A DNA stretch of 64,000 nt from Flavobacteriales bacterium (GTDB lineage Bacteria > Bacteroidota > Bacteroidia > Flavobacteriales_D > Crocinitomicaceae). The notes beneath the pieces are model-generated. The model searched no databases, had not been told where the DNA came from, and saw only the letters and a list, made by a program, of their open reading frames with translations. The DNA lies in assembly GCA_947447525.1 (NCBI GenBank), contig CANFJL010000011.1:45125-109124 (forward strand), written 5' to 3'. Positions 2,557-41,471 of this stretch are shown piece by piece. Made by a program: the position numbers and the translations under genes. Numbering within the stretch: the first letter of the stretch is position 1; every line of letters begins with the position of its first letter.

Positions 2557-3333
2557 TTACTCCAGACCCTCTCCCAAAATTTTAACTGAATTTTCTCTTA
2601 AATTTTTTAAACGCCTTTCCATACTTTCATTTTTTTCATCTTCAAGTTCTAAAATGATTTCTTTATTGGATCGAGGGGTATACAATTTGTTTAAAATAGC
2701 CATTCTGATCAGTTCATTTGCTGAACTCACTTCCATTTTTTTCATCAATTTTGTCCGCAATAAATCGATATTTTTCTTAGAGGTTGGAAGTAAATCTGCT
2801 ATTTCATTACTCGAAAATCCATCGCAAATCAGCTTTAATAGTTTCAAATCTCTTTGACTAAGACTCAAATAGTCGGCTCTTGAGTTGCGCTTTCTTGTTT
2901 GTGCCAAGTTATGCAATAGTGATTGATTCATAATGGCATTGGTATACTCCACTTCTGAATGCACGCATTCAATGGCCTCTATCATTTCTCGAGTAGAACA
3001 TTCCTTCAAAAGATAGGCATCTGCACCAAAGGATAGCAGTTCAAAGGCAATTTCTAAATCCTTGTGCATCGTCATAATAATGACTTTTATGGATGATTCT
3101 TGTTTTTTAAGTGCTTTTAAGGTCTCAATTCCATTTAATACTGGCATTTCAAGATCTAGAAGAACAACATCAATAGGATTATCCTTGAGTTGCTCCAGAA
3201 ATTCTTGACCATTTGCAGCATCAAACACAAACTCAAGCGCTGGAATTTTAGTAAGCATTAGTGCAATGGCATTTCTAACCACTTCGTGATCCTCCACTAA
3301 GGCAACTTTAATTCTTGAACAATTCTTAGCCAT
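2557..3333 (-). CDS. Response regulator, REC + LuxR/NarL-type HTH
   Basis: N-terminal VALVEDHEVVRNAI, phospho-Asp context VVLLDLEMPVLNG, C-terminal LSLSQRDLKLLKLICDGFSSNEIADLL HTH. Confidence 0.85.
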   Translation of the reverse strand: MAKNCSRIKVALVEDHEVVRNAIALMLTKIPALEFVFDAANGQEFLEQLKDNPIDVVLLDLEMPVLNGIETLKALKKQESSIKVIIMTMHKDLEIAFELLSFGADAYLLKECSTREMIEAIECVHSEVEYTNAIMNQSLLHNLAQTRKRNSRADYLSLSQRDLKLLKLICDGFSSNEIADLLPTSKKNIDLLRTKLMKKMEVSSANELIRMAILNKLYTPRSNKEIILELEDEKNESMERRLKNLRENSVKILGEGLE

Positions 3334-3344
3334 AAATCACTTTT

Positions 3345-4142
3345 TTAAACTTTCGCGTTGATCTCAATCGTACCGTTTTTCTCAAATTTCTTATAGATAA
3401 TTTCTCCATTGAGTAAACTCAAACGATACAGTATATTTCCTAAACCTAAACTGTCAGAGTCCGATGCGAAAAGTTCAAAGTCGCTTTGCGAAAGAGCAAT
3501 TCCGTTGTGTGTGATTTTCATTGTAAGATGTTCGGAATCAAATGTTAATGTCATTTCAATAGAAGTGGGACCACTGTGTTTTAATAAATTGGTAATCAGT
3601 TCACTCGCAATATAAAAATATTGCGTCATGACAAGATCTGAAAGCAATAGATTATCGGGAATATTTGATTTAAAAGTAAAGGAATCAATGAAAGAATCGG
3701 TCTTTTGTTGGGTCATTTTTTCCAGCGCTTTCACTAATCCGAATTTCAATAAATAATGCGGGATTAAACCTTTTGTGATGTGACGCAAGCGTTCAATACT
3801 TTCAGAGACATATTCCTTGCTTAAGCTAATGGCTTCGAAATTTCTATCTCCCTGCACTGAATTTTCCTTCATATTGGAAAGATTCTTTTGGGCCAAAGAC
3901 AAAATTGCACCAATATCATCGTGTAATACTCGCGCAATAGTACTTCGCTCCTCTTCTTGTGAACTTATAGCAATTCCTAATTTTTCTATTTTATTTTTAT
4001 CCTCAATACTTTTAACCAGCTGATCAGATAAAATCTTTATTTTCCGATTTTTTCGAGAAAGCATGATCATTACAGATCCCATTCCAAGCGAAAGAAGCAT
4101 AAATAAAACAATAAAGAATCCTAATTCTTGTGGTTCAAGCAT
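3345..4142 (-). CDS. Sensor histidine kinase, HisKA_3 type, single N-terminal TM; start moved to internal ATG MLEPQELGFF
   Basis: H-box EEERSTIARVLHDDIGAILSLAQ, then HATPase-like C-terminus (SDSLGLGNILYRLSLLNGEI). The ORF-track start at 4187 would overlap the upstream gene more deeply. Confidence 0.8.
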   Translation of the reverse strand: MLEPQELGFFIVLFMLLSLGMGSVMIMLSRKNRKIKILSDQLVKSIEDKNKIEKLGIAISSQEEERSTIARVLHDDIGAILSLAQKNLSNMKENSVQGDRNFEAISLSKEYVSESIERLRHITKGLIPHYLLKFGLVKALEKMTQQKTDSFIDSFTFKSNIPDNLLLSDLVMTQYFYIASELITNLLKHSGPTSIEMTLTFDSEHLTMKITHNGIALSQSDFELFASDSDSLGLGNILYRLSLLNGEIIYKKFEKNGTIEINAKV

Positions 4143-4729
4143 AGAGAATATGTGAAGATGCCATTTAAAACTAGTATGACTGAACAAACAAAGACCATTA
4201 TATAATCCATCAATCCATTTAGATAAATAGTCTCATCTAAAAAATAAACATAAAATATAAGAACAGCATAATAAATCGTAATGGATTCTAAGATTAATCG
4301 TTCAAATTTTGTGCCCTCATGACTCAATAATATTCTAAAACCTATGAATATAATAGCCAGATATTGGTAAAGTACTGAAAGCACATTACTGTCAAAAAGA
4401 TTTGAGGTAATAAATAAATCTAAAGCAGAAAATACAAGAGCGGTAGCAATAAAAAAAGACTTTTTCAACTTAAATCTACCTACTAAATAAAAAAGTTCGA
4501 GGATCAGTATAAATTGTACTGGTCCAGAAAAATGAAATGTTGGCAGCGAATTATGAATTGTTTTTTCTAAGACAAAGACACTAAGATCTGTTAAAAAACG
4601 AGCCATTAAAAGCATTACAAAAAAGCTGTAAAATCTATTCGCTCTAAAGTTTATAAATCTTTTATAGTTTATAAAAAATAGAGGAATACCACTAGATCCC
4701 AATGTCATATAGAAAATGAAATTTAACAT
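4121..4729 (-). CDS. Multi-pass (about 6-7 TM) membrane protein in signalling operon
   Basis: Several hydrophobic segments, no soluble catalytic domain; overlaps the start of the kinase gene and the end of the 4729-5043 gene. Confidence 0.6.
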   Translation of the reverse strand: MLNFIFYMTLGSSGIPLFFINYKRFINFRANRFYSFFVMLLMARFLTDLSVFVLEKTIHNSLPTFHFSGPVQFILILELFYLVGRFKLKKSFFIATALVFSALDLFITSNLFDSNVLSVLYQYLAIIFIGFRILLSHEGTKFERLILESITIYYAVLIFYVYFLDETIYLNGLMDYIMVFVCSVILVLNGIFTYSLCLNHKN

Positions 4730-5043
4730 TAACTATTTAATGGATTTAAACTTGAGCATTTAGGTGGGCATTTTTTTAGTTGATCTGCAATTAAACCTTC
4801 AGACAAATCATTTTCATCGGCATCGGCACCCACCAAAACAAGATTTTGGACGCCCTCATCATCAATTCCAAAATAAAATCGAATTCCAACACATTCATTT
4901 TGTGCAAGAATTTGCTTAATTTTTTCTTGGCCCATAAAAACTCCAATCACCTCACCTGTTTGAATGGTGTTTCTGTAGCGTTTTGTCATTTCTGACCCTT
5001 CTTTTAGGGTGATAAATTCCCCTTCATTTCCATTAAAAGACAT
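4729..5043 (-). CDS. Small conserved hypothetical protein ('NGNEG' N-terminus, 104 aa)
   Basis: MSFNGNEGEFITLKEGSEMTKRYRNTIQTGEVIGVFMGQEKIKQILAQNECVGIRFYFGIDDEG...; 1-nt overlap with the next operon gene. A truncated paralogue is present at about 41358-41454. Confidence 0.65.
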   Translation of the reverse strand: MSFNGNEGEFITLKEGSEMTKRYRNTIQTGEVIGVFMGQEKIKQILAQNECVGIRFYFGIDDEGVQNLVLVGADADENDLSEGLIADQLKKCPPKCSSLNPLNS

Positions 5044-5309
5044 TGTGTATAATTTTTAGAATGTAATTAATGCTAATATAAAAAATTATAAGGCTCTATT
5101 TTTTTATAAATCATAGAATTTCAACCAAGATCTTTGAAAGTCTAGAACAAGTTCTATTTTTTACTATAATAAGTTCTAGCGGTTTATAACTTTTCTACAC
5201 CTAGTTTTGTAGTGTAAATAAAAAACGAAAGTTAATTCATCTTTGAGGAGAAAAAACAGACCTGAACACTCCCAAAAAAGAAGTAAGGCAATTTTAAAAA
5301 AATAAAAAT

Positions 5310-5693
5310 ATGAAAAAATTAATCTACGGAACATTATTCCTTACCTTAGTAGGAATTGGAGTTATTGGATGTCAAAAAGAGCATATTAGCCAACAACAAA
5401 CCTCTGGCTCAGCTGAATCAGTTACTCAAGTTTTAAAGAGTGTTGTATATGCAAGTTTAACCTGTGAATTAGCCAACGGTCAGACAGGCTGTCAATGCGC
5501 TGTCACACAATCTGACGATGATTGTTCAGAACAAACCGCTTGTACAGCTCAGTCATTGTTGCCTAACTACAGTCATACTTTGGCGACAATGTTTACTGCT
5601 AAACAAATTCAAGATAGAGCGGACCATAAAGTAAGAATAACTGAGCCTGATTTAATTGCGGCTCTGAAATTAGACAATTTCCCTTTAAAATAA
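5310..5693 (+). CDS. Small Cys-rich putative lipoprotein
   Basis: Signal peptide with lipobox-like VIGC; Cys-rich segment CELANGQTGCQCAVTQSDDDCSEQTAC. Confidence 0.6.
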   Translation: MKKLIYGTLFLTLVGIGVIGCQKEHISQQQTSGSAESVTQVLKSVVYASLTCELANGQTGCQCAVTQSDDDCSEQTACTAQSLLPNYSHTLATMFTAKQIQDRADHKVRITEPDLIAALKLDNFPLK

Positions 5694-38366: not shown

Positions 38367-38411
38367 AATGTAATCTTCTTTCAAGATTTTGTGGTTAGAA
38401 GATTACGTTCA
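38367..38411 (+). promoter_or_regulatory. Long hairpin in the 5' UTR of the M4 metallopeptidase gene
   Basis: GAATGTAATCTTCT...AGAAGATTACGTTC: 13 of 14 positions Watson-Crick plus one G-U, 17-nt loop, about 20 nt before ATG at 38431. Confidence 0.75.
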
Positions 38412-38430
38412 ATTCAAAATTAAAACAAGT

Positions 38431-40422
38431 ATGAAAACACTATTAACCGGTTTATTTATTGTAATATCAAAATTAAGCTTAGCGCAATTCACGCAATATG
38501 AACAACTTCTAACACCTTATTTGTCTAAACCCATTCAAAGTGGTTTCTTTTATTTTAATACACCAAACAGCTTTCAAGCTGGAACATTGTATCAAATGTA
38601 TCGCCAAAGTGTACCAGATTTGAACAATAATATGGTCTTGACAGATCACCACATTGATAGTCTAGCCGGTTTTACTCATTATAAGTATCAACAAACTTTT
38701 ATGGATATTCCAATCGAAGGTGCAGGCTGCATAGAACATTATGACAAACATGGCTCTTTGGAATTTATTAATGCAAAAATTGCTGATTCGATTAATTCAA
38801 CAGCTGAACCTAGAATTACATTTAAGGATGCGTTAAATAAAGTGATTTCTGAACTTAAACAAGATCCTAAAATTAAATTCGCATGGGAAAATCTAGATTG
38901 GGAGCAACAAATCAGAAAAGATCATGCAGACAGTAATGCAACATGGTTTCCAACTTCCGAATTAATTTTTGCCATCGATAAAATGAAAAATATGAATTTA
39001 GTAATTGATGGTAATCGATACTGCTTAGCATATAAAATTTCAATCACTACGATAGCACCCTCCTTTGAAACATTTTTTTACTACGTGAATGCCTTGAATG
39101 GTATGATTTTTAAAATAAGATCCTCACACATTGATGTAAATGGTGATGTATATGGATATGGCAACAAATATATAGATACTAAATGGCGAGGAGGTTTTAT
39201 ACAAAAATATGAGCTAGATGCGGAAGATTCACCACATAATTTCCATACCAAAAAATTTATGGGATATAACGTTGCTTGGGATAATATGTATGATACTCGA
39301 TCATCTTCCACAAATTGGGGAAGCATCTATTTAACTGAAACTTCAACTCATTTTCACGTAGGCAACACTTGGGATTATTTCTATAATACTTTTGGAAGGA
39401 ATGGAATGGATGGCCAAGGAGGGGAAGTTAGAATAAAAACACAATGGAACCTTAACGACGCATATTATGATCATCAAATAATTCCAAATGAATTGGTTTT
39501 TGGAAAGACACCTGATGCTTGGGATTTAGGAATGGAACCTAGTATAGTCGGGCATGAATTTACGCATGGTGTAACTAAACATACTGCAGATCTAGTTTAT
39601 GAATATGAATCAGGGGCATTAAATGAATCATTTAGTGATATTTTTGGCACCGTTATTCAAGCCCAAACTTTAGATTTTGGTAACACGGATTGGATTCTTG
39701 GAAATCATATTCCAAATAGTATTGTGAACACTAGATCTTTGATTGATCCAAATTCACGGGGTAAACATTGGAATGGGAATTTGGACGCAAATGGAAATAT
39801 TATTCTTACTGTTGGTCAGCCAGATTATTATCAAGGAACTTTCTGGTGTTATAGTTGTTCTGGGGATGCACATGGTGATTATGGTGGAGTACATATAAAT
39901 TCAGGAGTGCAAAATAAATGGTTTCAAGCCTTGAGTGCCGGTGAATCTAGCCCATCAGTTACTGGTATTGGAATGACCAAAGCCGCGAGAATAGCCTATT
40001 ATGCTTTGACATCAATACTAATGAGTTCTTCTCAATATTCGGATTCAAAAGAAGCAACGATTACTGCCGCTATAATTCTCTATGGCGAGTGTTCTCAAGA
40101 ACATAAATCGACGGTTGACGCATGGAATTATGTCGGTGTAAACGCTTCATATAATTGTACAACAAATTCAACAAATAACATTGATGAAAATATTGAAATA
40201 TTTATTTATCCAAATCCTGCTAGTAAGTCAATCTTTGTGGAATTACCTAAAATTGCAAAAAGCCCAATTCAAATTTTTGATATTAATGGAAGGTTGATCA
40301 ATGAAATCAAAAGTTTAGATCTTAATTTTCAAATTGATATTTCACATTTACAGGCTGGTGTTTATTTGTTTAATTTTGATTTCGATGGTCAAACAAAAGT
40401 CAAACAAATTATAGTTGAATAA
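38431..40422 (+). CDS. M4 (thermolysin) family metallopeptidase, T9SS type A cargo
   Basis: VGHEFTHGVTKH (HExxH), GALNESFSDIFG (Glu ligand), HINSGVQNKWF; C-terminal IYPNPASKSIFVELP...QAGVYLFNFDFDGQTKVKQIIVE. Start at MKTLLTGLFIV. Confidence 0.88.
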   Translation: MKTLLTGLFIVISKLSLAQFTQYEQLLTPYLSKPIQSGFFYFNTPNSFQAGTLYQMYRQSVPDLNNNMVLTDHHIDSLAGFTHYKYQQTFMDIPIEGAGCIEHYDKHGSLEFINAKIADSINSTAEPRITFKDALNKVISELKQDPKIKFAWENLDWEQQIRKDHADSNATWFPTSELIFAIDKMKNMNLVIDGNRYCLAYKISITTIAPSFETFFYYVNALNGMIFKIRSSHIDVNGDVYGYGNKYIDTKWRGGFIQKYELDAEDSPHNFHTKKFMGYNVAWDNMYDTRSSSTNWGSIYLTETSTHFHVGNTWDYFYNTFGRNGMDGQGGEVRIKTQWNLNDAYYDHQIIPNELVFGKTPDAWDLGMEPSIVGHEFTHGVTKHTADLVYEYESGALNESFSDIFGTVIQAQTLDFGNTDWILGNHIPNSIVNTRSLIDPNSRGKHWNGNLDANGNIILTVGQPDYYQGTFWCYSCSGDAHGDYGGVHINSGVQNKWFQALSAGESSPSVTGIGMTKAARIAYYALTSILMSSSQYSDSKEATITAAIILYGECSQEHKSTVDAWNYVGVNASYNCTTNSTNNIDENIEIFIYPNPASKSIFVELPKIAKSPIQIFDINGRLINEIKSLDLNFQIDISHLQAGVYLFNFDFDGQTKVKQIIVE

Positions 40423-41156: not shown

Positions 41157-41357
41157 ATTACGCAGTTAGTAATCATTTGTTCGGCAATGCCAAACCTTTT
41201 AGTACATGTACTAAATTATTATGGACTTATATAAAACATTCATCCATTCTCTTTTTGGTCAACCACATTGCAGACAAGGGTTTAAACATACTCTTCAAAC
41301 GAAAACACACAAAAAATTGTCATTAATTCATTCTATTTTTGAATCCTAATCAATTAT

Positions 41358-41471
41358 TTGTCATTTAACGGAAACGAAGGGGGATTTGTAACTTTAAGCG
41401 ATGCATCTCGCTGGACTGCTAACTATCGTAATACGATTCAACCTAGAGATACTATTGCATTCGCGCTATGA
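41358..41471 (+). pseudogene. Truncated copy of the 'NGNEG' small protein gene
   Basis: TTG-SFNGNEGGFVTLSDASRWTANYRNTIQPRD matches MSFNGNEGEFITLKEGSEMTKRYRNTIQTGE of 4729-5043, then is interrupted at repeat A. Confidence 0.8.

Follow-up and report, generated by a model that had tools for sequence, protein, structure and literature searches.

The DNA analysed was a single stretch of 64,000 nucleotides (the window), the minus strand of which carries four overlapping or closely spaced genes, all of them present at the positions assigned in an initial annotation made from the sequence alone. The first (4729-5043) encodes a small protein of 104 aa, here termed NG, and overlaps by 1 bp the gene for a multi-transmembrane (TM) protein of 202 aa (4121-4729), a compact seven-transmembrane (7TM) protein proposed below as a receptor. 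Next come the genes for a HisKA_3-type histidine kinase (HK; 3345-4142, 265 aa) with one N-terminal TM segment and, after a gap of 11 bp, for a NarL/LuxR-type response regulator (RR; 2557-3333, 258 aa) made up of REC and GerE domains. The kinase had earlier been read as a frame starting at a TTG (3345-4187); the gene was upheld but its start was not, the ATG at 4142 being the probable start since it makes the kinase and TM genes overlap by 22 nt, and -22 is the commonest TM-HK spacing in the related loci described below. Among those loci, NG and TM often meet at spacings of -4 to +3 bp. The module is bounded on one side by a divergent, plus-strand gene for a lipoprotein-like protein of 127 aa (5310-5693), which shares the operator region and is a candidate target, and on the other by a minus-strand TPP riboswitch (2434-2340), which starts the following transcription unit and thereby delimits the module. 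Scans for sigma-70 promoters and terminators were uninformative (14 found versus 12.9 expected; no terminator inside the module).

Pfam searches of the kinase returned HATPase_c and HisKA_3, the latter borderline in one search (22.5 bits, below the cut-off of 24) and above the cut-off in a second (25.7 bits); the H-box (RVLHDDIGA, with the phospho-acceptor), N-box and G-box are visible in the translation. These searches, too, confirmed that beyond its single N-terminal TM segment the kinase has no sensor domain, as first described. The regulator matched Response_reg (1.2e-26) and GerE (7.8e-12).

No Pfam family was found in the window's TM protein. Its AF2 model (pLDDT 92.9) consists of seven long helices, and an N-out/C-in topology is predicted by the positive-inside rule, the Lys plus Arg content of each odd loop exceeding that of each even one. 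The nearest folds returned by Foldseek were class B GPCRs and microbial rhodopsins (TM-score 0.53-0.59), at E-values that were not significant (0.025-0.3); the Foldseek probability reached 1.00, and since E was 0.025 or worse, the likeness was taken as one of architecture and not of ancestry. Conserved polar positions include E/D48, N60/N61, E72, Y153 and N189. A retinal-binding reading was rejected because helix 7 has no mid-helix lysine: in the helix at residues 171-201 lysine occurs solely at the C-terminal end, and the conserved polar residue is N189.

The NG protein has a conserved core (QxxCxGIRxY) and a conserved C-terminal tail (CPPxC....LNS), the extreme C-terminus being strongly conserved. 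Its AF2 model (pLDDT 93.3) shows two helices and a small sheet, for which PDB and BFVD contained no match at E < 0.06 or with a TM-score (query length) above about 0.32. The family had no match in the Pfam, NCBIfam or PADLOC profiles, and nothing convincing came from the defence-system profiles of PADLOC. Pfam matches of single NG or TM members were scattered one-offs and were discarded.

Recurrence and genomic linkage of the module

Whether NG homologues recur beside a multi-TM protein and a HisKA_3/NarL pair had been proposed as a check. The linkage proved near-universal: the order NG-(TM)n-HK-RR, with overlapping or short junctions, was observed in 113 of the 138 loci read, which come from Bacteroidota and a small number of neighbouring phyla. 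These loci were the best 80 of 186 relatives from a scan of GTDB contigs, plus 58 from a sample of 396 Bacteroidota genomes. Eight of the remainder stop at contig ends, nine have an NG-TM pair with another output or a lost partner, and the last eight involve a gene not called, a frame problem or, in one case, an orphan (L134). Because a few loci from the genus of the window are counted that also entered through the congener set (for example, L063 is G020 C1), and the HMMs were derived from the family itself, this result is best read as roughly four in five and not as an exact rate. The linkage held for weak NG matches too, and these were found without using HK or RR. In that sample of 396 Bacteroidota genomes, drawn evenly and separate from the GTDB scan, NG was present in 48 (about 12%). 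The taxa include Crocinitomicaceae-type Flavobacteriales and extend to further classes of Bacteroidota, with metagenome-assembled genomes labelled Marinimicrobia, KSB1, Zixibacteria and Kapabacteria.

Among relatives of the window's genome, NG was found in 11 of 60 (the window's own genome counted), and all 13 loci long enough to judge had the arrangement NG-TM-HK-RR. The window's genome itself has four NG matches: three lie in full modules (the window's, L016, together with L017 and L018), and the fourth is a relic. All three TM homologues of this genome lie inside such modules. It has only four HisKA_3 kinases and three of these lie there too, which puts the gene arrangement far beyond chance. 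The truncated NG gene noted earlier at 41.36 kb is real, being a fragment ORF of 37 codons plus a stop (41358-41471, plus strand) with its own perfect upstream operator, TTAGTACATGTACTAA (41199-41214). The region 41199-41449 is 83% identical over 262 bp to the operator, leader and NG start of a full module in a congener (L022); in this remnant of a decayed sister module (41199-41471), the operator and the 5' end of NG survive and the rest is gone.

The flanks of the module vary between most loci. The exception is a Flavobacterium-like genus, in which the module is found at one fixed site, preceded by accA and dnaB and followed by a 419-aa gene with no Pfam match (L191, L192, L196, L200, L201, L206 and L215-L217). 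The collections of viral contigs, plasmids and phages searched contained no close relative of NG; within them, the module is thus carried by neither phages nor plasmids.

Across the 107 complete modules compared, identity averaged 0.34 for NG, 0.18 for TM, 0.27 for HK and 0.33 for RR, the TM protein being the most diverged part. Partial correlations of the distance matrices were 0.69 for HK-RR and 0.36 for TM-HK; those involving NG were 0.18 (NG-TM), 0.17 (NG-HK) and -0.10 (NG-RR). This pattern fits a chain from NG/TM to HK to RR, with the NG values modest.

At some loci the NG-TM pair is kept while the output changes, as would be expected of an input unit: it is followed by a REC-adenylate/guanylate cyclase protein in L099, by PAS hybrid kinases in L183 and L197, and by a PAS-GerE protein in L122, while in L175 and L179 a PAS domain is inserted in the HisKA_3 kinase (L197 and L175 were read from sequence, not by profile). 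Conversely, TM-HK-RR sets without a called NG occur in L266 and, similarly, in L259 and L264, so not every such system needs NG. On this evidence the multi-TM protein looks like the indispensable, constant partner and NG a usual, not obligatory, companion. Natural duplications of the putative input unit were also seen, with two NG domains in one protein (L036, L189) or two tandem NG-TM pairs before one kinase (L030, L174).

Operators and candidate targets

Two palindromes of 7-2-7 geometry lie upstream of NG in the window: CTAGAACAAGTTCTAT at 5142-5157, 98 bp upstream of the NG start, and CTATAATAAGTTCTAG at 5164-5179, exactly 22 bp from the first. Such tandem 16-bp palindromes, 21-22 bp apart and located at about -100 to -170, have the geometry of NarL-type operators and, as a sequence pattern, recur in the majority of the further upstream regions examined. 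The score of the tandem pair was reached by none of 300 dinucleotide shuffles in the window (L016), L023, L024, L025 and L258, and by at most 8 of 300 in L018, L019, L020 and L022; it was weaker in L021 and L017, and in L026, L027, L028 and L266 the same test could not tell the pair from chance. Summed over 15 loci, the score peaked at offsets 21 and 22. Single palindromes upstream of NG in the window did not exceed chance expectation, and a genome-wide search for the window's operator (CTAGAACNNGTTCTAG, up to 2 mismatches) returned 13 sites against 17 for a reversed control. No regulon can therefore be called from the window's motif alone, just the 22-bp tandem pair being distinctive.

The half-site changes with the recognition helix of the regulator. 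CTAGAA-type half-sites pair with TSKKN(I/L)DL and TTAGTAC-type ones with SKKSID; a third set, of AGGT/GGTG-type repeats, goes with ARKTIEN or S(R/K)KT(V/I)E. Given these matched pairs and the NarL-type tandem palindromes, autoregulation of the NG operon appears likely, although this is a prediction from sequence patterns. Perfect TTAGTACNNGTACTAA sites (TTAGTAC-type) were found in 8 of 12 NG-positive versus none of 29 NG-negative congeneric genomes (Fisher test by hand, about 5e-6, uncorrected for phylogeny).

TTAGTAC-type sites also stand before several genes for secreted or outer-membrane proteins and, often in tandem, before an Amidase_2 gene in three genomes. One to three such operators precede the latter (L025:12290-12913, L257:4669-5295, L265:4062-4694), the context of which looks like that of a mobile element and suggests that the element adopted the regulator of the host's module. 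Elsewhere in L257 (9731-10308), two tandem proteins of 93-94 aa (MGDIFIQ(K/N)SSATISTFTNELGNGLT...) with no Pfam match are encoded near a weak operator. In the window, the first 29 residues of the lipoprotein-like protein (5310-5693) are 52% identical to those encoded by a module-adjacent gene in L023. A further candidate target is a T9SS-secreted M4 (thermolysin-type) metalloprotease (38389-40422, plus strand) that precedes the relic and has homologues directly adjoining full modules in L027 and L017. The module of L202 is flanked by genes for tail-collar/MdpB-like repeat proteins and a periplasmic-binding-protein-like gene (these names come from inspecting the sequence, not from a profile search); judged by gene sizes, the flanks of L195, L208, L210, L212 and L213 are similar, and these genes are possible targets.

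Proposed signalling unit and the role of NG

We consider it likely that the four genes form one split-sensor two-component system, with NG/TM input and a self-regulating, NarL-type output. The compact 7TM protein would be the membrane receptor and NG its small partner domain, acting either as an input or ligand-binding subunit or as a modulator; the two would control a histidine kinase in which a membrane anchor and a coiled linker replace the sensor, complex formation and the direction of signal flow being inferred. The kinase would phosphorylate the regulator, which would bind the tandem 7-2-7 palindromes upstream of NG and thereby regulate its own operon, and would probably also drive a few secreted or outer-membrane proteins; the binding, and activation over repression, are likewise inferences. 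Gene linkage and anatomy support the earlier suggestion of a split sensor, with the small or the multi-TM protein as input; beyond that level, the role of NG, the complex and the signal are inferences.

That an ordinary two-component pair merely has two unrelated hypothetical genes as chance neighbours deserves next to no credence: the kinase and regulator do belong to standard families, but the same four-gene order at those 113 loci, in many genera and with varied flanks, contradicts it. The alternatives that matter concern NG, and turn largely on where it is located. A simple scan for hydropathy and lipoboxes flagged a leader in only 12 of 137 NG proteins (one of the 12 is probably a wrong start); a hydrophobic leader is absent from the window's NG, as from most of the others, and these proteins are predicted to be cytoplasmic. 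It remains conceivable, if somewhat unlikely, that NG is not an input domain but a cytoplasmic inhibitor or scaffold of a 7TM-kinase sensor, a negative regulator LiaF-like in function. Besides the missing leader, the translational coupling of NG to TM and a partial correlation of NG with the kinase about equal to that with TM would suit such a role. Several lineages, however, have an exported, lipidated or anchored NG, which would place it on the opposite side from the kinase core.

The same exported forms (L175, L183, L197, L199, L214, L219, L223, L230 and L231 encode NG with a signal peptide, a lipobox or a membrane anchor, and L212 and L213 have an additional lipoprotein of two NG-like repeats encoded between TM and HK) agree with a different idea, namely that cells make NG themselves as an extracellular or periplasmic signal protein for which the 7TM protein is the receptor, giving cell-cell or self-sensing with positive feedback in an agr-like build from unrelated parts. 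The conserved extreme C-terminus, the probable autoregulation of the operon and the divergence of the receptor would also fit. We nevertheless regard it as quite improbable, since most NG proteins are leaderless, no processing or export gene is linked, and NG is well conserved while specific pheromones usually diverge with their receptors. As to location there are two options: either NG acts outside the cytoplasm, which the leaderless forms would reach by an unknown route, or the domain is used on both sides of the membrane. If the receptor senses outside signals, the window's NG, given its lack of a hydrophobic leader, may make no contribution to the sensing surface. A broader proposal, which we hold to be unlikely, is a phylum-wide bacterial counterpart of ligand-7TM signalling: diverse receptors, each with NG as protein ligand or detachable sensing domain, interchangeable outputs (kinase/regulator, cyclase or hybrid kinase) and paralogues insulated by matched operators.

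Relation to known systems

No description of the module was found in the literature searched, which left out most subscription papers; it is real, widespread and apparently undescribed as a split-sensor two-component module. As an inherited unit that recurs across Bacteroidota without a family name in the libraries searched, NG, the 7TM protein, a sensor-less kinase and a regulator probably make up an unrecognised kind of bacterial receptor system. Two-component systems are familiar, but in this one sensing would be outsourced to two protein families unnamed in those libraries. If true, a seven-helix receptor of 200 residues with a separate partner of 100 residues would be a very small, tractable 7TM-to-kinase model; the reading would also give a function to the NG proteins of about 12% of the sampled Bacteroidota genomes, and the pairs of operator and recognition helix allow regulon prediction.

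LiaFSR and VraTSR combine a small-sensor, HisKA_3-class kinase with a NarL-type regulator. In these three-component systems of Firmicutes, a separately encoded membrane protein of the same operon controls the kinase (PMC3543457, PMC7191749). The module shares the kinase class, the regulator type and the separately encoded membrane protein. LiaF, however, is a negative regulator, while the module has a 7TM bundle plus a soluble NG domain and belongs to another phylum; no LiaF-family accessory protein was found, NG and TM being without a Pfam family. In QseG-QseE the kinase is modulated by a separately encoded outer-membrane lipoprotein (PMC12691602), which recalls those NG homologues that are also lipoproteins; that system has no 7TM protein, and no family common to it and the module was found. 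A seven-helix receptor controls the kinase in BtsS and other LytS-type or 7TMR-DISM receptors (PMC10653868), but these have the output fused to their 7TM part, which in the module has a gene of its own. The module's TM protein matches none of the LytS-type or 7TMR-DISM Pfam families.

The agr operon (AgrBDCA) is a self-regulated set of four genes for a small protein, a multi-TM protein, a kinase and a regulator. Its kinase class and regulator differ from those of the module, NG is a folded domain of 104 aa and not a short propeptide, and the AgrB peptidase family was absent among the matches of 74 TM homologues. In sensory rhodopsin-transducer pairs, the signal passes from a compact 7TM protein to a membrane-anchored transducer encoded by a separate, neighbouring gene. 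NG has no counterpart in these pairs, the module's receptor lacks the retinal-binding lysine in its last helix, and a kinase replaces the chemotaxis transducer. The module's receptor has, by prediction, the seven helices and N-out/C-in topology of microbial rhodopsins, and its model reaches a TM-score of 0.57-0.59 to them, at E-values that are not significant.
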